Assembly (NCBI GenBank): GCA_903907905.1
Contig: CAIVPX010000033.1
Span: 62,001-126,000, forward strand
From: an uncultured bacterium
GTDB lineage: Bacteria; Pseudomonadota; Gammaproteobacteria; Burkholderiales; Burkholderiaceae_E
DNA: 64,000 bases
Reading direction: 5' to 3'
Part shown: positions 18,808 to 45,053 of the stretch, piece by piece
How the letters are laid out: every line of letters starts with the position of its first letter
How positions within the stretch are numbered: position 1 is the first letter of the stretch
Position numbers and translations under genes: made by a program
Notes under the pieces: generated by a model
What the model was told of the DNA's origin: nothing
Database searches by the model: none
What the model saw: the letters and a program-made list of their open reading frames with translations, nothing else

Positions 18808-19805
18808 GCGGCTCGCCACGAGCCCGGTTTGCTGCGGCCGGCGCGGGCCGGATGGGGCGTGGAATCGCCCTGGCCTTTGCCTGGGCGGGCTATCGGGTTT
18901 CGCTCATTGATCTGAAGCCGCGCTCGCCCGATGCCTGGCAGACGCTGTCCGGTGAGATCGAGGCCGAGTTGCGCGCCAGCCTGGGTGCTCTGGCGGATTT
19001 GGGCGCCCTGGACCCCGGGCAGATACCCGCGCTGCTCGATCGCATCACGCTGGTGGACGCGTCCGGGGCGGCTGAGGCACTGGCGGCGGCCGAACTGGTG
19101 TTCGAGGGCGTACCCGAAACGCTCGAGGCCAAGCGCGAGGCCCTTGAGTGGCTGAGCCGTGCCTGCGTGCCCGAGGCGATCATCACCTCCACCACCAGCA
19201 GCATTCTGGTGACGCAACTCGTCGGCTTTGTCAGCCATCCCGAGCGCTTTCTGAATATTCACTGGCTCAACCCGGCCTACCTCATTCCGGTGGTCGAACT
19301 GTCTACGCATCCTGGCACCTCGCCCCGGGTGCTCGAGCGGGCCCGCAGCCTGATGGCCGCTATCGGCAAGATGCCGGTGGTGTGTGGCGCGACACCCGGC
19401 TACATCGTCCCCCGACTCCAGGCGCTGGTGATGAACGAGGCAGCCCGGATGATCGAAGAGGGGGCGGCGACTGCCGAGGAAATCGACAAGGCCACCCGCT
19501 ACGGCATGGGCCTTCGCTTCGCCGCGCTTGGCGTGGTCGAATTCATCGACTTTGGTGGCGCCGACATCCTTCATCACGCCAGTCGCGAGATGTCGGCGTC
19601 GGTCGACGCGGGACGTTACCAGGCGCCGCCGGTGCTGGCTGGCATGATGGCCCGGGGTGAGTTGGGCCTGAAGTCAGGCAAGGGTTTCTACGACTACACC
19701 GGGGTCGATGTGGCGGCCTATCGTCGCGACGTACTGGCCCGAACACTGGGCATGCTGCGCCACGCCGGTGGCTTGCACCCCGCCTCCCGTGACACAATTT
19801 CGTGA
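18804..19805 (+). CDS. 3-hydroxyacyl-CoA dehydrogenase family protein
   Basis: A 333-residue protein with the Rossmann motif AAGAGRMGRGIA, an acidic LIDLK that selects NAD, TSTTSSI, and NIHWLNPAYLIPVVE, which aligns with the catalytic-His segment of 3-hydroxyacyl-CoA dehydrogenases (usually HFFNP). The C-terminal domain has ATPGYIVPRLQALVMNEA and GKGFYDY. The NPAYLIP variant also occurs in carnitine and other beta-hydroxy acid dehydrogenases, so the substrate may be a free beta-hydroxy acid rather than a CoA ester. Coupled to the opine-type dehydrogenase by an ATGA overlap and followed by TRAP genes. Confidence 0.82.
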   Translation: MSGSPRARFAAAGAGRMGRGIALAFAWAGYRVSLIDLKPRSPDAWQTLSGEIEAELRASLGALADLGALDPGQIPALLDRITLVDASGAAEALAAAELVFEGVPETLEAKREALEWLSRACVPEAIITSTTSSILVTQLVGFVSHPERFLNIHWLNPAYLIPVVELSTHPGTSPRVLERARSLMAAIGKMPVVCGATPGYIVPRLQALVMNEAARMIEEGAATAEEIDKATRYGMGLRFAALGVVEFIDFGGADILHHASREMSASVDAGRYQAPPVLAGMMARGELGLKSGKGFYDYTGVDVAAYRRDVLARTLGMLRHAGGLHPASRDTIS

Positions 19806-19860
19806 TGTCCTCTTTCCATGCCCGAGGCCGCAAGCGGCCCCTCAACCAGGAGTAACTGCG

Positions 19861-20826
19861 ATGAACATGATCCGCCGCTTCGGTCTGGCCGCTGCACTGG
19901 CGTTGGCTTTTGGAGCCCCGGTCAGTGCCCAGCAGGTCACGCTCAAGGCCGTCAACGCCTTTCAGGAAGGCACCACCTATGCGAAAAATTTCGAGCGTTT
20001 CATCGCGAAGGTGAACGACGAAGGCAAGGGCCTGGTGCAAATCAATTATCTTGGTGGGCCCAAGGCCATCCCCACCATGGAGCAGGGGGCCGCGCTGCGC
20101 AATGGTGTGGTGGATCTGTCCAACACCACCACGTCCTTCGTGGCGAGCGTGTCGCCCGAGTCACTGAGCGTCAACTACGCCAGCGTCCCCTGGGCCGAAA
20201 TGCGCCGCAACGGCACCGTCGAGTTCCTCAACAAGCTGATGATGGAAAAGGGGCTCTACTACTTCGCCCGCACAGGGGATGGCGTGCCTTACCACATCTA
20301 CCTGAACAAACGCATCGACCGGGCTGACCTGACCGGCCTCAAGATCCGCATTGCGCCCATTTATCGCGAGTTCTTCTCCCGGCTCGGCGCATCGGTCATG
20401 CAGGTGGCGCCGGGCGAGGTGTACACGGCACTCGATCGCGGGGTGGTCGACGGCTATGGCTGGCCGCTGCTGGGCATCTTCGACCTGGGCTGGCACGAGA
20501 AGACCAAGTACCGCGTCGACCCCGGTTTCTACAACATCGAACTGGGCGTGATCTTCAGTGCAAAGACCTGGAATGCCCTCACGCCGGCCCAGCGCGCCTT
20601 CCTTGACAAGCAGGGCGTCTGGCTTGAAAGCCTCAATGCCGACATGCCGCTCAATCAGGCGCCGGCCGAGATCAAGCGTCAGGCCGATGCCGGGATCGAA
20701 GTCATCCGCCTGCCCGAAGCGGAGGCGAAGAAACTTCTTCAGATGTCCCTGGATGCCGGCTGGGCGGGGGTCATTGCGACCAGCCCACAGCATGGTCCGA
20801 AGCTGCGCCAGTTGATGGCGCCCTGA
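19861..20826 (+). CDS. dctP: TRAP transporter substrate-binding protein (DctP-like)
   Basis: The 321-residue periplasmic binding protein starts at the ATG at 19861 with a CAGGAGT ribosome site; earlier in-frame codons belong to the previous gene. A Sec signal ends at SAQQ. DctP traits are NYLGGPKAIP, LKIRIAPIYREFFSRLGASVM with the ligand-carboxylate Arg, and APGEVYTALDRGVVDGYGWP. These receptors bind carboxylates for sodium-driven uptake. dctQ and dctM follow directly, so the transporter is complete; the adjacent enzymes suggest an N-(carboxyalkyl)amino acid or hydroxy acid ligand. Confidence 0.9.
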   Translation: MNMIRRFGLAAALALAFGAPVSAQQVTLKAVNAFQEGTTYAKNFERFIAKVNDEGKGLVQINYLGGPKAIPTMEQGAALRNGVVDLSNTTTSFVASVSPESLSVNYASVPWAEMRRNGTVEFLNKLMMEKGLYYFARTGDGVPYHIYLNKRIDRADLTGLKIRIAPIYREFFSRLGASVMQVAPGEVYTALDRGVVDGYGWPLLGIFDLGWHEKTKYRVDPGFYNIELGVIFSAKTWNALTPAQRAFLDKQGVWLESLNADMPLNQAPAEIKRQADAGIEVIRLPEAEAKKLLQMSLDAGWAGVIATSPQHGPKLRQLMAP

Positions 20827-20838
20827 GCGCAGCACGCC

Positions 20839-21324
20839 TTGTACGCGTTGCTGATGCGGGCCTGCGGGGCGCTCTCGGGCGCCACCGTCGGACTGATCAC
20901 GCTGCTGGTCTGCTTTGATGTGATCGGGCGCAATCTCGGCTTGCGTCCGCTTGTCTGGATCAACGAGGTCACCGAGTACGCCCTGCCGGTGGCCACCCTG
21001 GCCGCCGCGCCCTGGCTGATGTGGCGCAACCAGCATGTCCGTCTCGATCTGCTCGGGGTATTGCTCTCGCCCGAGGGGCAGAAGCGGCTTGACCGCGCGT
21101 CTGCCCTGCTGGGCCTGGTGGTGAGTGGGGTGCTGGTCTGGTATGGCGTGCTCACGGTCCTTGACAGCCGTGCGGCCGGTAGCCTGGTGCTCAAGGCGCT
21201 GGTCTTTCCCGAGTGGTGGCTCTACGTCCCCTTTCCCATTGGCTTTGCCCTGCTTGCGCTCGAATGCGGACGCCGGGTCCTGCACCCCGAGGGGCTCAGC
21301 TCCGAGAGCGGGAGCGCGGCATGA
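20839..21324 (+). CDS. dctQ: TRAP transporter small permease (DctQ-like)
   Basis: The 161-residue small membrane subunit has four predicted transmembrane helices. INEVTEYALPVATLAAAPWLMWRNQHVRLDLL includes the conserved acidic/Arg loop of DctQ proteins. The TTG at 20839 is taken as start; an in-frame ATG at 20854 is possible, and neither has a clear ribosome site, so translation may be coupled to dctP, whose stop lies 12 bases upstream. It overlaps dctM by 4 bases. Confidence 0.88.
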   Translation: MYALLMRACGALSGATVGLITLLVCFDVIGRNLGLRPLVWINEVTEYALPVATLAAAPWLMWRNQHVRLDLLGVLLSPEGQKRLDRASALLGLVVSGVLVWYGVLTVLDSRAAGSLVLKALVFPEWWLYVPFPIGFALLALECGRRVLHPEGLSSESGSAA

Positions 21325-22640
21325 TCTGGTGGCAGGGGCTGCTCCTGCTCTTTGGCATCCTGACGGTGCTGCTGCTGGTGGGGCTGCCAGCCGGCATCGC
21401 CTTTCTGGCCATCAACCTCGTTGGGGCGCTGGTGTTCCTGGGCGGCGAGGCTGGCCTCATGCAAACCGTCCGCAACGGGGTTGCCTCGATCACCAACTTT
21501 TCACTCACGCCCATTCCCTTCTTCATCCTGATGGGCGAGGTGCTCTTTCACACCGGTCTGGCCATGAAGGCCATCGACGGCTTTGACCGCGCCATCCGGG
21601 GCGTGCCGGCACGCCTGAGCGTGGTGGCCATTGTTGCGGGCACGGTGTTCTCGGCGATCTCGGGATCCACCATTGCCACGACCGCGCTGCTGGGCAGCCT
21701 GCTCCTGCCCGAGATGCTGCGGCGGGGTTATCACCCGCGCATGGCCATGGGGCCCATCATGGCCATTGGGGGGGTGGACATGCTCATCCCGCCTTCGGCG
21801 ATCACCGTGCTGCTGGGCAGCCTCGCCGGCATCTCGATTTCAGGGTTGCTCATTGCCGGCGTCGTACCCGGACTGCTGCTGGCGGTGATGTTCCTAGGCT
21901 GGATCACGCTCAGCGCCTGGCGCAACCCGGCCCTCGCGCCCAATTTCGCGCGTGACGAAGTCGAGGGCTGGGCACGCTGGGGGCCGCTCGTCGTCAACGT
22001 CACGCCGCTGGTTCTCATCTTCGTGCTGGTCATCGCAGCCATGTCGGCCGGGTGGGCCACACCCACCGAAAGCGCGGCGCTGGGGGCGCTGGCCACAGTG
22101 ATCGTCAGCGTGCTGTACCGTTCGCTCTCGGTCCGCGCGTTGGCGCAGTCGCTGATGGGTACGGCCGCCATCTCGGGTGTCATCCTGTTCATCATCATTG
22201 GCGCCACCACGTTTTCGCAGATCCTGTCATTTTCCGGTGCCACCAATGGCCTGGTGGCCTTGGTGCGAGAGGGGGGGCTGCCGCCCTGGGGGGTGCTCGC
22301 AGGCATGGTCGTCATCCTGCTCATCCTCGGCTGCTTCATCGACCAGGTGAGCATGATGCTGATCACGCTGCCTTTCTTCATGCCGCTGGTGCAGTTCTAC
22401 GGGTGGGATCCGCTCTGGTGGGGAGTGCTGTATCTCATCTGCATGCAACTCGGTCTGCTCACGCCGCCCTTTGGCATGCTGCTCTTCACCATGCGCAGTG
22501 TTGCGCCGGCTTCCATTCCCACCAGCGAAATCTTTGCCGCCGTCACGCCCTATGTGCTGATGGGCATGCTGATGGTCGCTCTGGTCTGGCTGCTTCCGCC
22601 GGTCGCCACGTGGCTGCCCTCGCTGCTGCTGGGCAAGTAG
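21321..22640 (+). CDS. dctM: TRAP transporter large permease (DctM-like)
   Basis: The 439-residue polytopic subunit starts at the ATG at 21321 overlapping the dctQ stop. DctM signatures include PIPFFILMGEVLFHTG, GSTIATTALLGSLLLPEML and MLIPPSAITVLLGSLAGISI, with about 12 helices. It forms the sodium-coupled channel of the TRAP system with DctQ. It closes the opine dehydrogenase operon; 67 bases later the oxygenase genes begin on the same strand, with a possible but weak promoter (TTGACA at 22646) between them. Confidence 0.92.
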   Translation: MIWWQGLLLLFGILTVLLLVGLPAGIAFLAINLVGALVFLGGEAGLMQTVRNGVASITNFSLTPIPFFILMGEVLFHTGLAMKAIDGFDRAIRGVPARLSVVAIVAGTVFSAISGSTIATTALLGSLLLPEMLRRGYHPRMAMGPIMAIGGVDMLIPPSAITVLLGSLAGISISGLLIAGVVPGLLLAVMFLGWITLSAWRNPALAPNFARDEVEGWARWGPLVVNVTPLVLIFVLVIAAMSAGWATPTESAALGALATVIVSVLYRSLSVRALAQSLMGTAAISGVILFIIIGATTFSQILSFSGATNGLVALVREGGLPPWGVLAGMVVILLILGCFIDQVSMMLITLPFFMPLVQFYGWDPLWWGVLYLICMQLGLLTPPFGMLLFTMRSVAPASIPTSEIFAAVTPYVLMGMLMVALVWLLPPVATWLPSLLLGK

Positions 22641-22707
22641 GCGGTTTGACATTCGTGTGTCGCCCCGGGAACGTATCGCCTTGACCCCACCCAGTTCAGG
22701 AGAGCGC

Positions 22708-24018
22708 TTGAACGAATCCGATCTGCTTGGGCTGGTGCGCGACGATCAGGTGCACCGCGACATCTATCTCAGCGCCCAGGTGTTCGAACTCGAGATGCAG
22801 CGCTTGTGGCGGCGGGCCTGGCTGTTCGTGGGGCACGAGAGCCAGATTCCCGAGGCTGGCGACTACGTCACCTGCGTGCTGGCGGGCCAGCCGGTCATCA
22901 TGCTTCGAGGCCTGGACGGTGCGATCGGCGTGTGGCTCAACCGCTGCGCGCACAAGGGTGCACCGCTCGTGGGCGACACCCAGGGTCGCAGCGCCCGCGT
23001 GCTGCGCTGCCCCTACCATGGATGGACCTTCAACCTGGATGGTTCCCTGGCCTCGACCCCGCTTCGAAGCGGCTACGAGGCAGGCGGCTTTGAGCAGAGT
23101 GCGGCCCGGGCGGGGCTCTCGCCCTGGGGCGAGGTGCAGGTGTATCGGGGGTTCGTGTTTGCCCGGGCCGAGCCAGGCGATCCGGGCTTTGCCGACCACC
23201 TGGGCGAATTGCTGCCAGCGCTTGATCTCCTGGCCGATCGTTCGCCGCGCGGCCGCCTCGTCGTGGCGGGCGGTGTCATTCGTACGAGCATTGCAGCCAA
23301 CTGGAAGATTTATCTCGAAAACATCAACGACGCCGTGCACCCCGTGACCACGCATGCCTCGGCCACCCTGTCGGCCCGCGCGGTCTGGGAGAGCGAGCCG
23401 CGCGAGGGCTCGCCGCCACTGGCCATGCGGCAGTTGCTGCCCTTTGGCTCGGGCTACTCGTTTTTCGAGCAGATGGGCGGGCGTGTGCTGCCCCATGGCC
23501 ACAGCCTGCTCGGCACCCAGCAAAGCCTGCACACCTCGTACACCGACCTGGGTGACTATGGCCTGGCCTTGCGCGAGGCCCACGGCGAGGCCCGGGCGTC
23601 GCAGGTGCTGGCCTTCACGCCGCAGAATGTTGTCTTCTACCCCTCGATGGCGCTCAAGGGCACGCCGCAGGTGATGCGGGTACTGCGCCCGGTCGCCGCC
23701 GACCGTACGGTCATCGAAGCCTGGGCCTTCCAGCCTGAGGGGGCGCCTGAGGCCTTGCTCGAGAGCGCGCTGCTTTACAACCGTCAGGTGTTCTCGCCAA
23801 TGTCGGTGGTGGCGCACGATGACCTGTATCTGTTCGAGGGCATCCAGCGAAGCCTCGTCGCCCGCGGCAACCCGTGGGTCAGCCTGCATCGGGGGGTACG
23901 GGGGGCGGGCGATGAGCGCCTGCCGCGCGATGTCAGCGGTGTCGATGAGGCGCTGCTGCGCAATCAATACCAGGCCTGGCGCGAGGCGATGGGCGAGCGC
24001 GCAGGAGCGTCGGCATGA
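22708..24018 (+). CDS. Aromatic ring-hydroxylating oxygenase, alpha subunit (first pair)
   Basis: The 436-residue catalytic subunit starts at the TTG at 22708, five bases after AGGAG; the frame reaches back to a GTG at 22657 without a ribosome site. The Rieske cluster ligands are Cys80/His82 and Cys101/His104 (CAH and CPYH). The mononuclear iron site is Asp208, His211 and His216 in NINDAVHPVTTH. Such enzymes insert O2 into aromatic acids using electrons from a reductase. The beta gene overlaps by 4 bases. No ferredoxin or reductase gene is nearby, so one must be shared. Confidence 0.92.
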   Translation: MNESDLLGLVRDDQVHRDIYLSAQVFELEMQRLWRRAWLFVGHESQIPEAGDYVTCVLAGQPVIMLRGLDGAIGVWLNRCAHKGAPLVGDTQGRSARVLRCPYHGWTFNLDGSLASTPLRSGYEAGGFEQSAARAGLSPWGEVQVYRGFVFARAEPGDPGFADHLGELLPALDLLADRSPRGRLVVAGGVIRTSIAANWKIYLENINDAVHPVTTHASATLSARAVWESEPREGSPPLAMRQLLPFGSGYSFFEQMGGRVLPHGHSLLGTQQSLHTSYTDLGDYGLALREAHGEARASQVLAFTPQNVVFYPSMALKGTPQVMRVLRPVAADRTVIEAWAFQPEGAPEALLESALLYNRQVFSPMSVVAHDDLYLFEGIQRSLVARGNPWVSLHRGVRGAGDERLPRDVSGVDEALLRNQYQAWREAMGERAGASA

Positions 24019-24503
24019 GCGCGGTGGCCTTCGATCCTGCGGAATTGATCCGCTTCATCCTTCGGGAGGCCCGGCTGCTCGATGAACAGCGTTTCGACGA
24101 GTGGAACGACCTGTTTGCCCCTGAGGGCATGTACTGGCTGCCGGCCCGTCCGGATGCGACCGATCCGCTTCGGCAAGCTTCGCATCTGTACGACGACGAC
24201 ACGCTACGCAAGGTTCATCTGGCCCGCCTGCGCAGCCCCCATGCCCACTCGCAACAGCCAGCCGGTCGCTGCCATCACCTGCTGCAGACGCCGGAGCTGA
24301 TCACGGCGGATCCCGTCGCGGGCCGCTACCATTTGCGGACCCCTTTCCTGTACACCGAGCTGCGCGCGCAGCGCACTGTGACGCTGCCCGGGGTGGCCTG
24401 GCATCACCTTGTCCGAGTCGATGGGGCCCTGAGAATTCATCTGAAGCGGGTCGACCTGCTCCATGCCGATCAGGCGCTTCCCGCCCTGGAGTTCTACGTA
24501 TGA
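24015..24503 (+). CDS. Aromatic ring-hydroxylating oxygenase, beta subunit (first pair)
   Basis: The 162-residue NTF2-fold structural subunit. It has FILREARLLDEQRFDEWNDLF at the N-terminus, WLPARPDATDP, and the RCHHLLQTPELI region typical of benzoate/anthranilate-type beta subunits. It forms the alpha3beta3 core and has no redox centre. It overlaps the alpha stop (ATGA) and is followed by the second alpha gene 28 bases later. Confidence 0.9.
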   Translation: MSAVAFDPAELIRFILREARLLDEQRFDEWNDLFAPEGMYWLPARPDATDPLRQASHLYDDDTLRKVHLARLRSPHAHSQQPAGRCHHLLQTPELITADPVAGRYHLRTPFLYTELRAQRTVTLPGVAWHHLVRVDGALRIHLKRVDLLHADQALPALEFYV

Positions 24504-24531
24504 ACGGCATTCTTGTCGGAGGAGGCGGGCG

Positions 24532-25860
24532 ATGACAGGCAGGTCGGGAGCCTGGACCGCCAGGTCGATCCGTGAACTGGTCCGCGAGACTGAGGTGCAC
24601 AAGGCCGTCTACACCGATCCCGGGCTGTTCGATCTCGAGATGCGGCAACTCTTTGCCAACACCTGGGTGTTTGTCGGGCACGCAAGCCAGGTACCGGCGG
24701 CGGGCGACTACTTCACCACCACCGTCGGGACCGAGCCCGTGATCATGGTTCGGCACGACGACGGCGGCATTGGCGTGCTGATCAATCGCTGTGCGCACAA
24801 GGGCGTGAGACTGGTGAGTGAAGGGCGCGGAAATGCCGGTAAATTTTTCCGCTGTCCCTACCACGCCTGGACCTACTCCACCGACGGCAGCATCCGGCAT
24901 ATTCCGCTGCGCGATGAGGGCTACGGGGGGCGAGGCCTCGATGCCGCCGAAGCCTCCCAAGGATTGGCCCGCGCGGGGGCGGTACAGGTTTACCGCGATT
25001 TTGTCTTCTGCCGGCTGTCGGCGTCGGGCATCGGCTTTGAAGACTACTTTGGCGAATCGCTCTCCACCCTCGACAACATGGTGGACCGCTCGCCGGCGGG
25101 GCGCCTGGAGGTGGCCGGAGGGGTGCTGCGCTATCTGCACGGCTGCAACTGGAAGATGCTGGTTGAAAACCAGACCGACACCTGTCACCCGATGGTGGCG
25201 CATGAGTCGTCGGCCGGTACCACGGTGCGCATCTGGGGCGAGCAGCCACCGGGTACGCCCAAGCCCATGGCGGTCGAGCAGTTCGCGCCCTTCGTCAATT
25301 CCTACCGGTTCTTCGACAGCATGGGGATCCGGGTCTGGCGCAACGGGCACGGCCACACCGGCGTGTCTGATTCCATCCATGCAGCCTACTCGACGATTCC
25401 TGGCTACCAGGAGGCGATGGTCGCCGCCTACGGCGAGTCGCGCACCGCCAAGATCCTCGGCGAGGTGCGCCACAACACGATCTATTTTCCGAACATCATG
25501 GTCAAGGGGCCCATCCAGACCCTGAGGGTGTTCAAGCCGCTCGCGGCTGACCGGACCCTGGTGGAGAGCTGGACCTTCCGCCTCGTGGGCGCACCCGATG
25601 CGCTCTTCGAACGCACCTGCATGTACAACCGCCTGATCAATGCGCCCACCTCGATCGTCGGTCATGATGATCTGGAGGTCTATGAACGGGCACAACAGGG
25701 CCTGGGTGCGGCCGGGCGCGATTGGGTCAACCTCGGTCGGCTCCATGCGCCCGACGAGGCTGCGGCCGCCACCGTCGTCACGCCAGGAACCAGCGAAGTG
25801 CAGATGCGCAATCAGTTTCGCGCGTGGGTGCGCTTCATGACCGCCGGCATGGAGGACTGA
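24532..25860 (+). CDS. Aromatic ring-hydroxylating oxygenase, alpha subunit (second pair)
   Basis: The 442-residue subunit starts at the ATG at 24532 behind GGAGG. Rieske ligands are Cys87/His89 and Cys108/His111; the catalytic iron ligands are Asp216, His219 and His224 in DTCHPMVAH. It is clearly paralogous to the first alpha subunit (both share a VFVGH/LFVGH-Q-P-AGDY stretch and CAHKG), yet the substrate-pocket region differs. The pair may act on different substrates or on successive ring positions. One base separates its stop from the second beta gene. Confidence 0.92.
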   Translation: MTGRSGAWTARSIRELVRETEVHKAVYTDPGLFDLEMRQLFANTWVFVGHASQVPAAGDYFTTTVGTEPVIMVRHDDGGIGVLINRCAHKGVRLVSEGRGNAGKFFRCPYHAWTYSTDGSIRHIPLRDEGYGGRGLDAAEASQGLARAGAVQVYRDFVFCRLSASGIGFEDYFGESLSTLDNMVDRSPAGRLEVAGGVLRYLHGCNWKMLVENQTDTCHPMVAHESSAGTTVRIWGEQPPGTPKPMAVEQFAPFVNSYRFFDSMGIRVWRNGHGHTGVSDSIHAAYSTIPGYQEAMVAAYGESRTAKILGEVRHNTIYFPNIMVKGPIQTLRVFKPLAADRTLVESWTFRLVGAPDALFERTCMYNRLINAPTSIVGHDDLEVYERAQQGLGAAGRDWVNLGRLHAPDEAAAATVVTPGTSEVQMRNQFRAWVRFMTAGMED

Positions 25861-25861
25861 C

Positions 25862-26344
25862 ATGAGTTTCCCCTCGCGTGATCAGCTGATCGATTTCGTG
25901 CTCGACGAGGCGCAGCTGCTCGATACGCGCCAATATGCGGCATGGCTCGACCTGTTCACCGACGACGCCCGCTACTGGATGCCGCTCGAGCCCGGGCAGA
26001 CCGACCCGTTGCTGCACAATTCGCTGATGTACGAGGACAAGCTGCTACTGCGCATTCGTATCGAGCGGCTGGCGGGCAGCCGAACATTTTCCGAGCAACC
26101 GGCGACGCGCTGCCACCATCTGCTGCAGACGCCTCGCATCGAGTCCATGGATGAGCAGGCGGGCGAGTGCCAGCTGCGTACTGCGTTTCACTACGTCGAG
26201 ACGCGGCTCGATCGACAGACGCTGTTCGCCGGTTGGGCGACGCATCACCTGGTGCTGCACGAGGGCGCCCTGCGGATCCGTCTCAAGCGCATCGACCTGG
26301 TCAACAGCGATGCGGCCTTCGGCAACATCAGTCTTTTCATGTAG
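25862..26344 (+). CDS. Aromatic ring-hydroxylating oxygenase, beta subunit (second pair)
   Basis: The 160-residue NTF2-fold beta subunit resembles the first (DEAQLLDTRQYAAWLDLF, RCHHLLQTPRIE, RIRLKRIDLVN). The order alpha-beta-alpha-beta and the matching motifs point to tandem duplication of an ancestral pair followed by divergence. The next gene, a CoA ligase, starts 3 bases after its stop. Confidence 0.9.
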   Translation: MSFPSRDQLIDFVLDEAQLLDTRQYAAWLDLFTDDARYWMPLEPGQTDPLLHNSLMYEDKLLLRIRIERLAGSRTFSEQPATRCHHLLQTPRIESMDEQAGECQLRTAFHYVETRLDRQTLFAGWATHHLVLHEGALRIRLKRIDLVNSDAAFGNISLFM

Positions 26345-26347
26345 CGG

Positions 26348-28012
26348 GTGAGGCGCGTGAGCCAGAACATTCCCTCTTTCACCGGACAGCCGCTCACGGT
26401 GGCGCAGGCCCTCGAGCAGGCGGCCGCGCGCTGGCCCGATCAGCCTTTCGTCAATGTGCTGAGCGAGACGGCCCGTGCCTACGGGATCGATGCTGGCGAA
26501 CTCGGCTACCGCGACGCCCTGGAACGGGTCACGACCCTGCGGCAGCAGTACGCCGGAGCGGGCTACGGCCATGGACATCGTGTCGGGCTCATGCTCGACA
26601 ACCGGCCCGCCTTTCTGTTGCACTGGCTCGCGCTCAATGGCCTGGGGGTGTCGGTGGTGCCGGTCAGTTCGGAGTTGCGCTCGGCCGAACTCGAGTACCT
26701 CATCGCTCATTCCGAGCTGCTGCTCGTCGTTGCGCCACCGGCGCGTCATGCGCTGCTCGAGGCCTCGGCGCGCGCGGCCGCTCAGGCGGTCGCCCTCATG
26801 GGTGACGGCGATCAGCCGCCACGGGCACGGCGCCCCGCGCCGGCCCTCGGCGAGCCTGTCGGGCTGGCCACCGAGTGCGGTCTGCTCTACACCTCGGGCA
26901 CCACCGGGCGGCCGAAGGGCTGCATGCTGAGCAATCGCTATTACCTGCTGGCGGGGGCGTGGTATGCCTCGCTGGGGGGGCATGTGTCCTTGCAGCCCGG
27001 GCGCGAGCGCATGCTGACACCGCTGCCGCTGGTGCACATGAACGCGATGGCGTTTTCCGTCACCGCCATGATGCTCACCGGCGGCTGCATCAGCCTGGTC
27101 GATCGATTTCATCCGGACAGCTGGTGGGCGAGCGTGCGAGAGTCGAAGGCCACGGTCATCCATTATCTGGGTGTGATGCCCGCCATGCTGATGAAGGCGC
27201 CCGAGTCCGCCCCCGACCGTGACCACAGCGTGCGCTTCGGTTTCGGTGCGGGCGTCAACCGCAGTCTGCATCAGCCGTTCGAAGCTCGCTTCGGGTTTCC
27301 GCTGATCGAAGCCTGGGCCATGACCGAAACCGGCGCGGGCGGGGTCATCATTGCGCATGACGAGCCGCGTGAGGTGGGGAGCAACTGTTTTGGTCGCGAG
27401 GCCGCCGATCTCGAGGTGCGTATCGTTGCCGATTCCGGCAGCCCAGCCGGGGTCGACGAGCCGGGTGAACTGCTGGTGCGGCATGCAGGGGCCGACCCGC
27501 GTGACGGCTTCTTCTCCGGCTACCTCAAGGACGAGCAGGCTACGGCCGAGGCCTGGGCGGGCGGCTGGTTCCACACCGGCGATGTGGTGCGGCGCGATGC
27601 GCAGGGACTGCTCCACTTCATCGACCGGCGCAAGAATGTGATTCGCCGCAGCGGTGAGAACATCGCCGCCATCGAGGTCGAGAGCGTGCTGCTGCAGCAT
27701 CCGGCCGTACGCGCCGTGGCGGTGGCGGCCACCCCCGATGCCTTACGCGGCGATGAGGTGCTGGCCTGCGTCATCACCGATTCCGACCCCGCCCCCGGGG
27801 CGCCACGCGATGCGCTCGCGCACGACCTGGTCCGCTGGTGTCTGGCGCGGCTGGCCTACTACAAGGCGCCGGGCTATGTGGCCTTCGTCGACAGTCTGCC
27901 GCTCACCAGTTCACAGAAAGTGCAGCGCGGCGAGTTGAAGCGGATGGCGGCGACGCTCCCCGGACAGTCCCATTGCGTCGACACGCGGGCCCTCAAGAAG
28001 CGTCAGAGCTGA
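26348..28012 (+). CDS. AMP-dependent acyl-CoA synthetase/ligase
   Basis: The 554-residue ANL-superfamily enzyme activates a carboxylic acid via acyl-AMP to the CoA thioester. The phosphate loop YTSGTTGRPKG is at 181-191, AMTETG lies in the adenine/acyl pocket, WFHTGDVV carries the ribose-binding Asp, and Lys524 (SQKVQR) is the catalytic lysine of the mobile C-domain. GTG at 26348 is assumed; a GTG at 26357 with GGGTGAGG upstream is equally possible. It lies between the oxygenases and the thiolase-like gene, so it probably activates a hydroxylated or ring-opened acid. Confidence 0.9.
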   Translation: MRRVSQNIPSFTGQPLTVAQALEQAAARWPDQPFVNVLSETARAYGIDAGELGYRDALERVTTLRQQYAGAGYGHGHRVGLMLDNRPAFLLHWLALNGLGVSVVPVSSELRSAELEYLIAHSELLLVVAPPARHALLEASARAAAQAVALMGDGDQPPRARRPAPALGEPVGLATECGLLYTSGTTGRPKGCMLSNRYYLLAGAWYASLGGHVSLQPGRERMLTPLPLVHMNAMAFSVTAMMLTGGCISLVDRFHPDSWWASVRESKATVIHYLGVMPAMLMKAPESAPDRDHSVRFGFGAGVNRSLHQPFEARFGFPLIEAWAMTETGAGGVIIAHDEPREVGSNCFGREAADLEVRIVADSGSPAGVDEPGELLVRHAGADPRDGFFSGYLKDEQATAEAWAGGWFHTGDVVRRDAQGLLHFIDRRKNVIRRSGENIAAIEVESVLLQHPAVRAVAVAATPDALRGDEVLACVITDSDPAPGAPRDALAHDLVRWCLARLAYYKAPGYVAFVDSLPLTSSQKVQRGELKRMAATLPGQSHCVDTRALKKRQS

Positions 28013-28014
28013 AC

Positions 28015-29184
28015 ATGCCATCCCGTCGACAATCCTATGAGGGCGTGGCGGTGGCGGTGCCGGTCACGGTGCCCTACCGGCGCTACTCCACGCGCGGGGC
28101 GCACTGGTTCCTGGGTCAGTCGCTGAGGCGACTGCTGGACGAGTCCGGGCTGGACAAGGCGCAGATCGACGGGCTGACAGTCAGCAGCTTTTCGCTGGGC
28201 CCGGATACTGCGGTGGGTATCACCCAGCACCTGGGCCTGTCGCCACGCTGGCTTGATTACCTGCCCAATGGCGGTGCCTCAGGCGTCATGGCTTTGCGTC
28301 GCGCAGCCCGGGCGGTTCAGGCGGGCGATGCGGACATCGTGGCCTGCGTGGCGGCGGACACCAACCATGTCGACTCATTCAGGCAGATGCTGGGCGGGTT
28401 CAGCTACTTCGCGCGTGACGCCAGTTACCCCTACGGGGCAGGCGGTCCCAATTCAATTTTCGCGCTGGTCACCGCGAACTACATGCGGCGCTATGGGGCC
28501 CGGCGTGACGACTTCGGGCGCATCGCGGTGAGCCAGCGGATCAACGCAATGAAGAACCCGTTGGCGTTGTTCAAGCAAGCGCTTTCGCTGGATGACTACA
28601 TGGCCGCGCGTGCCATTTCCGATCCCATCCATCTGTTTGATTGCGTGATGCCCTGCGCAGGCGGCGAAGCCTTTCTCGTGATGAGCGAGCAGCGCGCGCG
28701 TGAGCTTGCGCTCCCTCATGCCACGCTGCGTGGCGCGATCGAGCGCCACAACGCCTTTTCCGACGATCCGGTGATGGAGCGGGGCGGTTGGCGGGTCGAC
28801 CGCGATGATCTGTATGCCCAGGCCGGCGTTGCGCCCGGGGCGATCGATTTCATCCAGACCTATGACGACTACCCCGTGATCGTGATGCTGCAGTTCGAGG
28901 ACCTGGGCTTTTGTGACAAGGGTGAAGGCCCCGAGTTTGTCCGCTCGCGCGATCTCACCTACGCAGGCGATTTTCCGAACAACACCGGAGGCGGGCAACT
29001 GTCGGCGGGCCAGGCCGGTGCGGCGGGTGGTTTCATCGGCATGAACGAAGCCCTGCGACAACTCACCGGTCAGGCGGGCGAGCGTCAGGTGGCCGATGCG
29101 GAACTGGGTCTGGTCTGCGGCTTCGGGATGGTCACCTACGATCGCTGCCTGTGCACCGGCGCAGCGATTCTCGGGAGGTCCTGA
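28015..29184 (+). CDS. Thiolase-like (SCP-x/Ltp type) protein lacking the nucleophilic Cys
   Basis: The 389-residue protein starts at the ATG at 28015; the earlier frame overlaps the ligase. The thiolase fold is evident, but the nucleophile position reads NGGASG (85-90), Gly in place of Cys, and the usual GHP motif near the C-terminus reads GQAG. The final CGFG keeps the second Cys. Such proteins (Ltp2, BbsB) work with a DUF35 partner in retro-aldol or C-C forming reactions on CoA esters. The next gene is a DUF35 fusion, starting at the last base of the stop codon, consistent with a complex. Confidence 0.82.
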   Translation: MPSRRQSYEGVAVAVPVTVPYRRYSTRGAHWFLGQSLRRLLDESGLDKAQIDGLTVSSFSLGPDTAVGITQHLGLSPRWLDYLPNGGASGVMALRRAARAVQAGDADIVACVAADTNHVDSFRQMLGGFSYFARDASYPYGAGGPNSIFALVTANYMRRYGARRDDFGRIAVSQRINAMKNPLALFKQALSLDDYMAARAISDPIHLFDCVMPCAGGEAFLVMSEQRARELALPHATLRGAIERHNAFSDDPVMERGGWRVDRDDLYAQAGVAPGAIDFIQTYDDYPVIVMLQFEDLGFCDKGEGPEFVRSRDLTYAGDFPNNTGGGQLSAGQAGAAGGFIGMNEALRQLTGQAGERQVADAELGLVCGFGMVTYDRCLCTGAAILGRS

Positions 29185-30437
29185 TGTCCATGCCCATGAT
29201 GCGGCCGCGTCGCAAGAACCCGGTCCTGCGCACGCGCACCATCAATCTGCCGCCGGTCGCGCGCGGTCGCACGGCGCTGGGGCTGACCTCGGCTGCGGCC
29301 GAAGGGCGCTTTGCGCTGCAGGTCTGCGCCGACTGTCAGGCGGTTCAGTATCCGCCGCGCGAGGCCTGTCATCGCTGTCTGTCGGCGAAGCTGGTCTGGC
29401 GCGGGCAGCCCGGTGAGGGCGAGTTGCTGGCGGTGACCACACTGCGTCACAGCAACGACTTGTTCTTTCGTGAGCGCCTGCCCTGGCGCGTCGGTCTGGT
29501 ACGGCTCGACAGCGGGCCCTCTCTCATCGTGCACCTGCACGGCGACATCGGCGAGGCGCCCGCGCGCGTTCGGGTCGGCGCTCGACTCGATCGGGCGGGC
29601 CAGGCCGTTCTGATCGCTTTTCCCGAACTGGAGCAAGCCCACATGGCAGACGACCCGATCTTGCGCGAGATGGCCAGCGATCCCAAATTCAGGAAGGTGC
29701 TCGTCACCGATGGCAAGACGGCGGTCGGCCAGGCCATTGCCCGGGCCTTGGTCAAGGCCGGGGCCGACATCGTGTGGGTGGGGGTCGCCGAGCCCTGGAA
29801 GAAGACCGGCGGGCTTGAGCCGCTGCTGGCCTTGCCGCAGATCACTCAGGTGCCGCTCGATCTGACCAACAGTCGCTCGGTGCAGGCGCTGGCTGGCGAA
29901 CTGGCGGGCAAGGTCGACATCGTCATCAACAACGCCGAGGTGCACCGGGCCTTTGGCATCAGTGCGCGGCGAGGCACCGACGTGGCGCGCGACGAGATGG
30001 AGGTCAACTACTTCGGTCTGTTGCGGCTGTCGCAGGCGTTTGGCCCGGCGCTGCGGGCGCGCGCAGCCGACGGCGACGCCGGTGCCACGGCCTGGGTGAA
30101 CCTGCTGTCCATCTATGCGCTCAGCAATTTCCCGCCGCACGGCACTTTTTCAGCCTCCAAGGCGGCGGCGCTCTCGCTCTCGCAGTGCCTGCGCTCGGAA
30201 ATGCGTCAGGCGGGTATCCGGGTGATCAACCTCTTTCCCGGTCCGATTGATGACGAGTGGAATCAGAACGTTCAGCCACCGAAGCTCGCACCCGCCGCGC
30301 TGGCCTCGGCCCTCGTCAAGGCGCTGCGCGATGGCGTGGAAGATGTGTACCCCGGGGACGTGGCGCAGGAGTGGCTCGAGCGTTGGCGTGAGGATCCCAA
30401 GGTGCTTGAGCGCGAGTTGGCGCTCGGAGGGTCCTGA
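29184..30437 (+). CDS. DUF35 (Zn ribbon/OB-fold) - SDR fusion protein
   Basis: A 417-residue fusion. Residues about 25-150 form a DUF35 module with zinc ligands Cys48, Cys51, Cys62 and Cys65 (CADC, CHRC) followed by an OB fold. Residues about 168-400 form an SDR domain, but its motifs are damaged: TDGKTAVG in place of TGxxxGIG, NNAE in place of NNAG, and Phe322 where the catalytic Tyr should be (FSASK); Ser309 and Lys326 remain. The SDR half may therefore bind a nucleotide or CoA ester without classical hydride transfer. Directly follows its presumed thiolase-like partner. No frameshift is seen at the domain junction, so the fusion looks genuine. Confidence 0.82.
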   Translation: MSMPMMRPRRKNPVLRTRTINLPPVARGRTALGLTSAAAEGRFALQVCADCQAVQYPPREACHRCLSAKLVWRGQPGEGELLAVTTLRHSNDLFFRERLPWRVGLVRLDSGPSLIVHLHGDIGEAPARVRVGARLDRAGQAVLIAFPELEQAHMADDPILREMASDPKFRKVLVTDGKTAVGQAIARALVKAGADIVWVGVAEPWKKTGGLEPLLALPQITQVPLDLTNSRSVQALAGELAGKVDIVINNAEVHRAFGISARRGTDVARDEMEVNYFGLLRLSQAFGPALRARAADGDAGATAWVNLLSIYALSNFPPHGTFSASKAAALSLSQCLRSEMRQAGIRVINLFPGPIDDEWNQNVQPPKLAPAALASALVKALRDGVEDVYPGDVAQEWLERWREDPKVLERELALGGS

Positions 30438-30440
30438 ACC

Positions 30441-31238
30441 ATGAGTGCCTCCAATACGCCCGTGCTGTCGGCGCTGGTCCAGGCGCTATCGAGTTCGCGC
30501 GTGCGGGTGATCGACCTCACCCAGGTGCTGTCGCCCGAGTTTCCGCAGATCACCCTGCCGCCTGAAATGGGCCAGTGCTGGCCCTTTCGTATCGAAGAGG
30601 TGTCGCGCTATGACGAGCGCGGGCCGGGCTGGTACTGGAACAATTTTTCCTGCGGCGAGCATACCGGCACCCACTTCGATGCCCCCATCCACTGGGTCTC
30701 GGGACGCGACCTGCCGAACAACTCGGTCGACACCATTCCGGTCGGCCAGTTCATCGCGCCGGCAGTCGTCATCGACTGCCACGAGCAGGCGCTGGCTGAC
30801 CCCGATTACCTGCTGACGGTGGCGGACATCGAGGCCTTCGAGGCGGCGCATGGCCGCATTCCCAAAGGGGCCTGGGTGCTGATGCGCACCGACTGGTCCA
30901 AGCGCCAAGACCCTGAGGCCTATCAGAACTTCGACGAAACCGGCCAGCATACGCCCGGACCCAGCGCCGAGGCCGTGCGGTTTATGGTCGAGCAGCGCGA
31001 TGTCATCGGCTTTGGCTCGGAGGCCATCGGCACCGACGCCGGGCAGGGCTATCACCTGCGCCCGCCCTATCCCTGTCACTACTACATGCACGGTGCCGGG
31101 CGCTATGGTCTGCAATGCTTGTGCAACCTCGACCTGTTGCCACCCACGGGAGCGGTACTGGTGTGCCCGCCGCTCAAGATTCAGCAGGGCAGCGGCAGTC
31201 CCTTGCGCGTGCTGGCGCTGGTCGAGGAAAGCATTTGA
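30441..31238 (+). CDS. Cyclase family protein (kynurenine formamidase-like metal hydrolase)
   Basis: The 265-residue product has the signature HTGTHFDAPIHW at 74-85, the metal-binding HxGTHxDxPxH motif of the cyclase/kynurenine formamidase family. Members hydrolyse amides, lactones or cyclic esters using divalent metal. The start follows GGAGGG, 3 bases after the fusion gene stop. In this operon it could open a ring or lactone produced after oxygenation; isatin-hydrolase-like activity is another option in the family. No signal peptide. Confidence 0.85.
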   Translation: MSASNTPVLSALVQALSSSRVRVIDLTQVLSPEFPQITLPPEMGQCWPFRIEEVSRYDERGPGWYWNNFSCGEHTGTHFDAPIHWVSGRDLPNNSVDTIPVGQFIAPAVVIDCHEQALADPDYLLTVADIEAFEAAHGRIPKGAWVLMRTDWSKRQDPEAYQNFDETGQHTPGPSAEAVRFMVEQRDVIGFGSEAIGTDAGQGYHLRPPYPCHYYMHGAGRYGLQCLCNLDLLPPTGAVLVCPPLKIQQGSGSPLRVLALVEESI

Positions 31239-31322
31239 TGGGCGCCGCTGTGGGCGTCAGGTCAAAGCTGACCGGGGCGCGCGAATGAGCGCGGGCGCAG
31301 CCTGCGCAGCGGAGGGCTGTTG

Positions 31323-32045
31323 ATGGCGGGGGTATCACTGGTCACCGGCGGCAGTGCCGGCATCGGTCTGGAGATCTGCCGGCGTCTGCTGGCAAGGGGT
31401 GACGAGGTCATTTCCCTGTCGCTCGAGCCCAGCCCGCTTCGGCATGAGCGTCTGCACAGCTGGCAGATCGATCTTAGCGATCGTGCGGCGACGCAGGCCC
31501 TCGCCGCCGAGCTTGCCCAGCGCTTCGAAATCCTCACGCTGGTGCATAACGCGGGCGTGGTGCGCGAGGCTCGTCTGGCCGATGCCCGACCCGAGGTGCT
31601 GGACGAGTTGGTCAATCTGCACCTGGCGGCCCCAATCGTTCTGGCTCAGGCGGCCCTGCCCGCCATGCGCGCCCACCGCTTCGGGCGCATCGTGCTCATT
31701 TCGTCCCGCGCGGCCCTGGGGCTGCCCGGACGTACCCACTACTCGGCGACCAAGGCCGGGCTGATCGGGTTGGCCCGCACCTGGGCGCTCGAGTTGGCAG
31801 GGGAGGGCATCACCGTCAACGTGGTGGCGCCAGGTCCGGTTCGTACCGACATGTTCCATGCCGTGATTGAGCCGGGCAGCGCCCGCGAGCGCGCGATTGC
31901 TGCGGCCATCCCGGTGGGCCGGCTCGGCGAGGTGGCCGATGTGGCCCGCGCGGTCGATTTTTTCGTGGCGCCGGACGCGGGCTTTGTCACCGGCCAGGTG
32001 CTCTACGTCTGTGGTGGTTCAAGCGTGGGGACGCTGACGATCTGA
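31323..32045 (+). CDS. SDR family oxidoreductase
   Basis: A classical 240-residue SDR with an intact active site: VTGGSAGIG near residue 6, HNAGVV, SSRAALG with catalytic Ser, and YSATK with Tyr/Lys. A GGAGG ribosome site precedes the ATG at 31323. It ends the oxygenase operon, 84 bases after the cyclase gene. Function may be oxidation of a cis-dihydrodiol or beta-hydroxyacyl-CoA; an intact SDR here contrasts with the degenerate SDR domain upstream and may supply the real dehydrogenase step. Confidence 0.86.
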   Translation: MAGVSLVTGGSAGIGLEICRRLLARGDEVISLSLEPSPLRHERLHSWQIDLSDRAATQALAAELAQRFEILTLVHNAGVVREARLADARPEVLDELVNLHLAAPIVLAQAALPAMRAHRFGRIVLISSRAALGLPGRTHYSATKAGLIGLARTWALELAGEGITVNVVAPGPVRTDMFHAVIEPGSARERAIAAAIPVGRLGEVADVARAVDFFVAPDAGFVTGQVLYVCGGSSVGTLTI

Positions 32046-41581: not shown

Positions 41582-41601
41582 CTCTCAGGTCGCCTCTCAG
41601 A
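41578..41601. repeat. Two-copy 12-base tandem repeat at the 3' end of the BKACE gene
   Basis: TCGCCTCTCAGG is followed immediately by TCGCCTCTCAGA. The second copy includes the BKACE stop codon (TGA on the minus strand) and the first sits in the terminator's outer arm. Probably a slippage duplication that does not change the protein. Confidence 0.55.
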
Positions 41602-42547
41602 TCGCCACGCCCGCTTTGCCCTTCAGTTGCAGCATGGCGCGGGCCTCGTCCGGGGTGGCCACCTGCAGCCCCAGGCGCTCGATCAGTTGTCGTGCGGCAC
41701 TCACTTGCTCGGCGTTTTTCGTGGCGAGTTGTCCCGGCGCAATCCAGAGCGAGTCTTCCAGGCCGACCCGCACGTTGCCGCCCAAGGTGAGTGACTGCGC
41801 GGCGATGGCGAGCTGGCTCTTGCCCGCTCCGAGCACGCTCCAGAGGTAATCGCCGCCAAACAGCCGATCGGCCGTGCGACGCATGTGCGCCACGTCCTCG
41901 GGGTGGGTGCCGATGCCGCCCAGAATGCCGAACACCGACTGCACGAAGAAGGGCGGTTTGACCAGGCCGCGATCGACGAAGTGCGCAAGCGTGTAGAGGT
42001 GGCCGATGTCGTAGCACTCGATCTCGAAGCGGGTGCCATTGTCGGCGCAGGTGCGCAGGATCTTCTCGATGTCCTTGAAGGTGTTTTTGAAAATTCGGTC
42101 ATCGGATCCGGCCAGATACGCCGTCTCCCACTCATGCGCAAACGACTTGTAGCGATTGAGCATCGGAAACAGGCCGAAGTTCATCGACCCCATGTTGAGC
42201 GAGGCCACCTCGGGCTTGAAGAGGGCGCAGGGCTTGAGCCGCTCGTCCACGGTCATCGTGGCCGCACCGCCAGTGGTGATGTTGATCACCACGTCCGATT
42301 TCGCGTGAATCGTCTTCAGGAAGGGCTCGAACAACTCGGGGCTCTGATCGGGCCGACCGTCAACCGGGTGTCGCGCATGCAGGTGCACGATGGCCGCCCC
42401 TGCGTCAGCCGCCTCGATCGCGGCCGTTGCGATCTGCTCGGCGGTGACCGGCAGATACGGTGACATCGAGGGCGTGTGGATGGAACCGGTGACGGCGCAG
42501 GTGATGATCACCTTGCGCGAGGACCTTGGGGCGGCGGGCTGATTCAT
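41597..42547 (-). CDS. BKACE (DUF849) family beta-keto acid cleavage enzyme
   Basis: The 316-residue protein has VHLHARHP with zinc ligands His55 and His57, and the C-terminal VGLEDSLW Glu that completes the zinc site. BKACE enzymes condense a beta-keto acid with acetyl-CoA, giving acetoacetate and a new acyl-CoA (as in 3-keto-5-aminohexanoate cleavage of lysine fermentation). The gene opposes the flanking TRAP and enoyl-CoA hydratase genes, and is probably monocistronic. A TRAP-imported beta-keto or beta-hydroxy acid is a plausible substrate; subfamily specificity cannot be assigned by eye. Confidence 0.88.
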   Translation of the reverse strand: MNQPAAPRSSRKVIITCAVTGSIHTPSMSPYLPVTAEQIATAAIEAADAGAAIVHLHARHPVDGRPDQSPELFEPFLKTIHAKSDVVINITTGGAATMTVDERLKPCALFKPEVASLNMGSMNFGLFPMLNRYKSFAHEWETAYLAGSDDRIFKNTFKDIEKILRTCADNGTRFEIECYDIGHLYTLAHFVDRGLVKPPFFVQSVFGILGGIGTHPEDVAHMRRTADRLFGGDYLWSVLGAGKSQLAIAAQSLTLGGNVRVGLEDSLWIAPGQLATKNAEQVSAARQLIERLGLQVATPDEARAMLQLKGKAGVAI

Positions 42548-42727: not shown

Positions 42728-43543
42728 GTGACCGAGCTGGTGCTGACCGAATTTCACGACTTGAAGAATGGGCGAGCGGCGGTCTTGCGACTGAACCGGC
42801 CGCAGGACCTCAACCCGCTCGACAAGGACACCGTCGCCGCGCTCAACCGCAGCATGGATGCACTGCTGGCCGATGCCAGCGTGGGGGCGGTGATCGTCAC
42901 CGGCGAGGGATCGGCCTTCTCGGCCGGTGGCGACCTCAAGGGCTACCTCGATCTCTACCTCGATGAGCCCGCCTTTCGGCGCTTTCTCGCGGGACTGAAG
43001 ACCTTCTTTGACAAGCTGGAGAACGGTCGTCTCATTTCGGTGGCGGCGGTCAATGGCGCCTGCGTGGCGGGGGGCTTCGAGTTGGCGCTCGCCTGCGACC
43101 TGATCGTCATGTCCAGTTCTGCGCGCATGGGGGACGGGCACCTGCGCTACTGGCAGTTGCCCGGCGCGGGCGGCTCGCAGCGCCTCACCCGTGCCGTGGG
43201 CTTGAACCTTGCGAAGCAGATTCTCTACAGCTATCAGATTTACGATGCGCAACGCTGCCAGGCGATCGGCTTGAGCGCCGCGAGCTTCGAGCCCGATCAG
43301 TTGCTCGCCGGAGCGCTGGCGATGGTCGACCGGATGATGACCACGCCCTCCGAGACCGTGACCGTCATGAAGCGCCTGCTCAAGGCCTCTGTCGAGATGC
43401 CACTCGAGCAGGGGCTCGACTACGAGATCGAAGAAGTCGTGCGTCACGCCATCGGCCAGGATGCGCCCGCCTACAAGGGGCTGCTGCGCTTTACCGAGCG
43501 CCCGCGAGCCGCCAATCCCACCTCAGACAGGGACAAGACATGA
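42728..43543 (+). CDS. Enoyl-CoA hydratase/isomerase (crotonase) family protein
   Basis: The 271-residue protein starts at the GTG at 42728 behind GGGGAA; the frame extends left but without support. Oxyanion-hole segments are FSAGGDL (64-70) and ACVAGGFELALACDL (111-125), with catalytic-type Glu118 retained. The second crotonase Glu (usually PE before GxIPGAGG) aligns with His138 (GHLRYWQLPGAGG), so simple hydration may not be the reaction; isomerase, decarboxylase or hydrolase activity is possible. It overlaps the thiolase-like gene by 4 bases. Confidence 0.85.
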   Translation: MTELVLTEFHDLKNGRAAVLRLNRPQDLNPLDKDTVAALNRSMDALLADASVGAVIVTGEGSAFSAGGDLKGYLDLYLDEPAFRRFLAGLKTFFDKLENGRLISVAAVNGACVAGGFELALACDLIVMSSSARMGDGHLRYWQLPGAGGSQRLTRAVGLNLAKQILYSYQIYDAQRCQAIGLSAASFEPDQLLAGALAMVDRMMTTPSETVTVMKRLLKASVEMPLEQGLDYEIEEVVRHAIGQDAPAYKGLLRFTERPRAANPTSDRDKT

Positions 43544-44711: not shown

Positions 44712-45053
44712 ATGACCCAAGCGTCCGTGCTGGTTCCCATGCAAGGCTGCAAGGCCTGTGAGCGGCTGTGGCACACGCCCTTGCCGAGTTGCCCCTTCTG
44801 CGCGAGCACCGATTGCAAGCCGGTCGAGGTGGGCGGTCGCGGCCGGGTCTACGCCTGGACGACGGTGGCCCGCTCGCTTGAGAGCCCGCCCCGACCAACG
44901 CCCTACACCATCGTCACCGTAGACCTGGAGGCGGGCGGGCGAGTGTTCGGGCGTTATGAGGGGACAGCCGAGCCGCAGCCGGACGAGCCCGTGGTGTGTA
45001 CCCGTGTCGACCGCGATGCGCAGGGGGCGCTCAGCTTTTCGCCGGCGCGCTAA
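44712..45053 (+). CDS. DUF35 Zn-ribbon/OB-fold protein
   Basis: A 113-residue, stand-alone DUF35 protein. Zinc ligands Cys13, Cys16, Cys27 and Cys30 (CKAC, CPFC) are complete, followed by a short OB fold (GRGRVYAWTTVARS, PYTIVTVDLEAGGRVFGRYEG). An AGGAG ribosome site precedes the ATG. It is the expected partner of the preceding thiolase-like protein. Its stop codon overlaps the opposing livF stop by 4 bases. Confidence 0.86.
   Translation: MTQASVLVPMQGCKACERLWHTPLPSCPFCASTDCKPVEVGGRGRVYAWTTVARSLESPPRPTPYTIVTVDLEAGGRVFGRYEGTAEPQPDEPVVCTRVDRDAQGALSFSPAR

Follow-up and report, generated by a model that had tools for sequence, protein, structure and literature searches.

A DUF35-SDR fusion protein, IadH, as predicted partner of a candidate thiolase-fold retro-aldolase in an iad-type auxin degradation locus

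The 64,000-nucleotide stretch analysed here (the window; contig CAIVPX010000033.1, positions 62,001 to 126,000, from an uncultured member of the Burkholderiaceae_E) encodes a protein that joins a DUF35 module to a short-chain dehydrogenase (SDR) domain. Judged by sequence comparison, this protein, IadH, and the thiolase-like protein IadG encoded just before it are likely to form a retro-aldolase that converts dioxindole-3-acetyl-CoA to isatin plus acetyl-CoA, with the SDR half of IadH a pseudoenzyme that carries out no hydride transfer. This suggests that the side-chain removal published as reductive may really be a retro-aldol cleavage to isatin. A preliminary description of this DNA had recognized the fusion, and lacked the identity of the gene as iadH, the likeness of the thiolase-like gene to retro-aldolases, and the presence of an isatin hydrolase as the next gene; it is these three that together suggest a reaction.

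The iad locus and its fusion gene

The fusion itself stands as first described. Its 417-residue frame is open throughout (Table 1), the product scores above the Pfam cut-offs for zf-ChsH2 (residues 36-70), OB_ChsH2_C (72-136) and adh_short (171-364), and a search for the same domain pair in other proteins finds it widespread, with 107 fused sequences examined. The iadG stop and the iadH start share the overlap TGATG, which suggests that the two genes are probably translated together. The gene set iadDEFGHIJ is present in the window. Homologues of the neighbouring CoA ligase, thiolase-like, cyclase-family, SDR and Rieske genes are found in 69 of 69 long loci, mostly from Variovorax and its relatives; these conserved neighbours, with the match of the Rieske alpha subunit to the solved Variovorax IadD, identify the locus by homology as one of iad type, for degradation of the auxin IAA, and the fusion gene as the orthologue of iadH.

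Table 1. Features of the iad-type locus, in window coordinates
Feature	Position	Strand	Basis
Second IadDE-like Rieske alpha/beta pair	22657-24018, 24015-24503 (22657..24503)	+	PDB 9o71 (Variovorax IadDE), E 3.2e-127, alpha subunit
iadD: Rieske oxygenase alpha subunit	24463..25860	+	PDB 9o71 (Variovorax IadDE), E 1.7e-174
iadE: Rieske oxygenase beta subunit	25862..26344	+	Homology, conserved neighbour
iadF: acyl-CoA synthetase	26348..28012	+	Pfam AMP-binding; conserved neighbour, 69/69
iadG: candidate thiolase-fold retro-aldolase, 389 aa	28015..29184	+	Closest PDB entries CtSal 9myr, TcLtp2 6ok1
YDDY motif of IadG, residues 283-286	28861..28872	+	Invariant, 96/96; aligns with YDCY (CtSal), YDHF (Ltp2)
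iadH: DUF35-pseudoSDR fusion (predicted), 417 aa	29184..30437	+	Open frame, Pfam, orthologues
DUF35 half, residues 29-150: zinc ribbon Cys48/51/62/65 and OB fold	29268..29633	+	Pfam zf-ChsH2, OB_ChsH2_C; PDB matches
SDR half, residues 169-413, predicted catalytically disabled	29688..30422	+	Pfam adh_short, fold match 5u4s, motif table
TDGKTAVG in place of TGxxxGxG (Asp176, Ala180)	29706..29729	+	Sequence
NNAE in place of NNAG (Glu252)	29928..29939	+	Sequence
Phe322 codon TTC at catalytic Tyr position	30147..30149	+	Sequence, homologous codons
iadI: isatin hydrolase (by homology)	30441..31238	+	PDB 5nna/5nnb/5nmp, E 3e-109 to 7e-107
iadJ: intact SDR dehydrogenase	31320..32045	+	Pfam; conserved neighbour

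The same gene order (oxygenase, CoA ligase, IadG, IadH, IadI, IadJ) is known from the iad locus of Variovorax paradoxus CL14/CL014 (PMC12633357, PMC9613470, PMC10374108), where the homologues of the window's IadH, about 80% identical to it, are annotated as alcohol dehydrogenase. The window differs from that locus in having a TRAP transporter upstream and no adjacent iadC or iadAB. The markers iadA and iadB have no match within the window; an IadB-like indolepyruvate ferredoxin oxidoreductase (49%) is encoded on a different contig (G000:C26:5370-6866, L159). The TRAP transporter genes (19708-22640) immediately precede the iad genes; in Variovorax the corresponding place is taken by IadK binding proteins of the ABC type. 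TRAP transporters accompany iad genes in Roseibium and Sulfitobacter too. With their Variovorax counterparts the window's oxygenases share only about 55% identity, a distance at which the starting substrate could differ from IAA and perhaps be an analogue of it. Elsewhere in the window, a second thiolase-like gene (43540-44700), whose product carries the motif YDCF and has a Tyr within a GYLHGMN stretch resembling the one in Ltp2, is followed by a small zinc-ribbon protein (44712-45053) that looks like a stand-alone DUF35, possibly making a second aldolase pair. A minus-strand gene (41597-42547) adjoins an enoyl-CoA hydratase-like gene and this second thiolase-like gene; we take it to resemble the DUF849/BKACE family.

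The SDR half of IadH

The residues singled out in the preliminary description (Cys48, 51, 62 and 65; TDGKTAVG; NNAE; Phe322; Ser309; Lys326) were read correctly, and they are conserved. Among 92 aligned homologues, Phe322 is found in 87, Asp176 and Glu252 in 88, Ser309 in 92 and Lys326 in 91; the four zinc Cys are kept in 88/88 of those covering them, and Asn275 is invariant in the alignment of close IadH homologues. At codon 322, 85 of the 88 homologous genes read TTC or TTT (Phe) and the other 3 read TAC. Substitutions common to the members of a family are not sequencing errors, and an error at the Tyr codon, which would have undone the original claim, is excluded.

Wider searches show that the fusion recurs across many families of the host phylum, Pseudomonadota, and that plasmids of Roseibium, Sulfitobacter and Azospirillum carry it too (in the first two genera the records name an SDR oxidoreductase). 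In the fusion set of 107 sequences, a few entries of which are one locus taken from two collections, position 176 is Asp in 102, Asn in 4 and Ala in 1, so the TGxxxGxG cofactor motif is missing from all of them. Not one combines Gly176, Tyr322 and Lys326. Three keep both Tyr and Lys, all with Asp176, and the Tyr322 members are L006, L090 and L092; the YxxxK catalytic pair, absent from the window's own IadH (Phe322), is broken in ten different combinations across the fusions (FK, FN, FQ, YQ, HC, HH, AA, AQ, TQ, EQ). At position 180 most have Glu, Pro or Ala. Single-domain SDR relatives have TGxxxGxG in nearly all cases and YxxxK in most, and 90% of them have at position 202 an Arg that is presumably a ligand of the NADP 2'-phosphate, whereas 92% of the fusions have Ala. 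On our reading, Asp or Asn at 176, Glu or Pro at 180 and Ala202 would oppose the binding of a dinucleotide, contrary to the retained NAD binding that had been suggested for the SDR half. It is therefore unlikely, in our estimate, that this half still binds NAD(P), or performs some other chemistry on a CoA ester (e.g. proton transfer by Ser309 and Lys326) that feeds the IadG site: the near-invariance of Ser309 and Lys326 in the close set, the invariance of Asn275 and the purifying selection on the SDR half all favor such activity, but Lys326 is replaced in many distant fusions (by Gln, Cys, His, Ala or Asn) and older loci carry DUF35 alone.

The SDR Rossmann fold is present in an alignment-based AF2 model of moderate quality (mean pLDDT 72.9), used after a single-sequence AlphaFold model of IadH (pLDDT 40) had been set aside. 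This model matches 5u4s, a Burkholderia cenocepacia SDR, with Z 21.2 and rmsd 3.3 over 219 residues; the structure-search matches listed are SDR folds only, because the SDR half takes up the whole list, and the test of the DUF35 half was accordingly one of sequence. 5u4s and the PRK08264-type SDRs are closest to the SDR half in both fold and sequence, and in 5u4s too the catalytic Tyr is gone (Leu). Unlike the SDR half of IadH, 5u4s is a single domain that keeps TGxxxGxG and has NADP bound. Loss of the Tyr alone is thus not unique, and the distinctive point is that cofactor and catalytic motifs are both lost.

There is reason to think that a disabled SDR half is nevertheless a maintained one. 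It is about 80% identical across genera, dN/dS is 0.126 for the SDR half vs 0.173 for the DUF35 half (rough figures, dS being partly saturated), and the SDR half has new fusion-specific invariant residues (W359, Q361, R255, R293, D296). These observations make it very unlikely that the SDR half is a functionless relic, a view that could draw on its strong degeneration in one genome (L105) and its absence from the distant loci L170 and L180-L183, although that absence looks ancestral rather than a loss. Those distant loci have a YDDY-type IadG followed by a stand-alone DUF35 protein, and in the IadG tree the loci with stand-alone DUF35 fall outside one fused clade (82/84; moderate support), while the SDR halves taken from fusions cluster as a single group (97% SH-aLRT). 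Given such outgroups and a single fused clade, the SDR was most likely joined in one event to an older DUF35 that stood alone, and the pairing of IadG with DUF35 most likely does not require it. The preliminary description had named separate domains with an intact Tyr as a case that would count against it: outgroups with DUF35 alone do exist, but no separate orthologue of the SDR half was seen in the operons of the stand-alone-DUF35 outgroup loci. One locus with stand-alone DUF35 (L153) retains iadD, iadE, iadF, iadG and iadJ. The idea that IadH is DUF35 joined to the pathway's own IadJ was rejected, as IadJ and IadH co-occur and differ, and a link between loss of the SDR half and loss of IadI (L153, L154) was dropped, an IadI being found about 14 kb away in G262.

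IadG, IadI and the fate of the side chain

The DUF35 half of IadH has a CxxC-x10-CxxC zinc ribbon followed by an OB fold (Pfam, with the four Cys in the fusions examined), and its best PDB matches in a sequence search are ChsH2(DUF35) 6ok1_B, PhlB and the DUF35 domain of Shy, 9myr_B; by these matches it resembles aldolase-docking DUF35 chains. For IadG the best PDB match is 9myr (E 1.7e-52), then 4u4e and TcLtp2 6ok1 (E 2.1e-41). We take 9myr to be CtSal from its name, YDCY motif and DUF35 partner chain. In alignments to solved thiolase-fold chains the position of the thiolase nucleophile is Gly87 in IadG, Gly in 95 of 96 homologues with one gap. The gene is therefore thiolase-like, as had been noted, but not Cys-less as had also been claimed: only the catalytic Cys is missing (Gly87, with Asp285 in the HDCF/YDCY motif). 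The catalytic Tyr of aldolases (YDxY/F) is present in all 96 homologues, as YDDY, and Gln328 and Gln333 (CtSal Gln347 and Gln352) are invariant as well, 96/96.

CtSal, a proven aldolase crystallised with its DUF35 partner, and Ltp2 catalyze retro-aldol cleavage of beta-hydroxyacyl-CoA thioesters by way of the Tyr in their YDCY or YDHF motif, and the DUF35 domain that each binds has another domain fused to it (PMC12329534, PMC11321319). The sequence of IadG points to a retro-aldolase rather than a thiolase. It is Sal-like only, and by sequence neither a Sal nor an Ltp2, because Asp285 replaces the Cys of YDCY and the Gln333-Gly335 region has no Tyr such as the general acid Tyr344 of Ltp2. An Asp as proton donor is without precedent in the characterised aldolases, which use Cys or Tyr, and this counts against the proposal; replacement of CtSal Cys304 with Ala, Ser or His abolishes activity, and Asp is not among the listed variants (PMC12329534). 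The genes of IadG and IadH are adjacent and their pairing is conserved; the two proteins are predicted to form a complex, in line with the earlier suggestion of a thiolase-like partner of the Ltp2 or BbsB kind.

The gene after iadH encodes, by homology, an isatin hydrolase. IadI shares with isatin hydrolase A of Labrenzia (Roseibium) aggregata (LaIHA; 5nna, 5nnb) the metal and active-site residues named for that enzyme (HxxxHxD, an Asp-His dyad and Gln; PMC6117287). Crystallised LaIHA (5nnb) and the product of the gene that directly follows the fusion in R. aggregatum differ at only about 10 of 257 positions. LaIHA was characterised as an isolated enzyme, where IadI sits within an iad operon; no statement on the place of LaIHA in an iad operon with IadG-IadH was found in the literature searched.

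From these parts we infer the following route. The Rieske oxygenase and IadJ (the intact SDR already proposed as available for a redox step) would make dioxindole-3-acetate, which IadF would convert to dioxindole-3-acetyl-CoA. Since this is a beta-hydroxyacyl-CoA with a tertiary alcohol, retro-aldol cleavage would give isatin plus acetyl-CoA: Tyr283 of the YDDY motif would deprotonate the alcohol, the IadG-IadH complex would cut the C-C bond with the side chain departing as the acetyl-CoA enolate, and Asp285 (in place of Cys in CtSal and His in Ltp2) would reprotonate the enolate as isatin is released. IadI would then hydrolyze isatin to isatinate, en route to anthranilate. The SDR half would be retained for a structural role or to hold a ligand.

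Deleting iadF, iadG, iadH or iadI in V. paradoxus CL014 reduces anthranilate and increases C10H9NO4; loss of iadH blocks anthranilate formation, with build-up of C10H9NO4 (dioxindole-3-acetate), and published genetics finds iadF, iadG, iadH, iadI and iadJ all needed for anthranilate (PMC12633357). The same preprint assigns ketothiolase activity to IadG and alcohol dehydrogenase activity to IadH, and has the side chain lost reductively. In that scheme IadG, an active IadH and IadF would yield dioxindole (C8H7NO2) for IadI. The C3 of dioxindole-3-acetate is quaternary and cannot yield a beta-ketone, so thiolysis is impossible there; moreover, hydrolysis of dioxindole would give C8H9NO3, while the formula reported is C8H7NO3. 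By contrast, C10H9NO4 less acetic acid is isatin, adding water gives C8H7NO3, loss of CO2 gives C7H7NO, and C7H7NO2, anthranilate, follows; the reported C8H7NO3, C7H7NO and C7H7NO2 (PMC12633357) fit isatinate, 2-aminobenzaldehyde and anthranilate, and isatin has been detected in Variovorax (PMC9613470). The lack of a nucleophilic Cys in IadG and its match to aldolases, the SDR motifs missing from IadH in all 107 fusions, and the match of IadI to isatin hydrolases likewise speak against the published assignment, which we consider quite unlikely even with the existing annotation and an accumulation result on its side. That result, the main conflict with a retro-aldol step, is that the iadI mutant, like the iadCDEFGH_JK2 strain, accumulates C8H7NO2 (the dioxindole formula), not isatin, the step being called reductive (PMC12633357). 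A retro-aldol account needs the hypothesis that this C8H7NO2 is dioxindole made from accumulated isatin by other reductases of the cell. A search of the open-licence literature on retro-aldol cleavage with isatin and IAA found no paper on point.

Related systems and implications

The pairs CtSal-Shy and TcLtp2-ChsH2 (PMC12329534, PMC11321319) resemble IadG-IadH in combining a thiolase fold without the nucleophilic Cys, a YDxY/F motif, and DUF35 fused to a second domain. IadG-IadH differs from them in its YDDY (vs YDCY and YDHF), in an SDR where they have MaoC, and in a predicted oxindole rather than steroid substrate. In the benzoylsuccinyl-CoA thiolase BbsAB, too, DUF35 partners a thiolase-like protein belonging to this broad superfamily, but BbsAB has an HDAF motif and thiolytic chemistry and is a weaker match to IadG (7pxp, E 1e-27). 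A term search of the three Variovorax papers (PMC12633357, PMC9613470, PMC10374108) found neither DUF35 nor a thiolase-fold aldolase mentioned, and no paper on a DUF35 fusion to a short-chain dehydrogenase was found in the open-licence literature.

ChsH2, like IadH, carries a catalytically inert domain, a MaoC domain that holds the steroid rings while the DUF35 domain docks the aldolase (PMC11321319). By analogy, the SDR half of IadH, probably a constrained pseudoenzyme, may serve as cradle or scaffold. More specifically, and only tentatively, a dead dehydrogenase added to an aldolase-docking domain might cradle the oxindole part of the substrate, or take isatin from IadG and hand it to IadI or IadJ, in parallel with the inert MaoC of ChsH2.

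Plant roots are protected when iad systems remove IAA, and this ability is now being built into root bacteria by engineering. Should IadG-IadH prove to be a retro-aldolase and IadI to be an isatin hydrolase, the middle of this pathway would be filled in, with acetyl-CoA released rather than a reduced product and the annotations of three enzymes changed. DUF35-partnered aldolases would then extend from steroids to oxindoles, and IadH would provide a tree-ordered example of how a docking domain came to recruit a dead enzyme domain.
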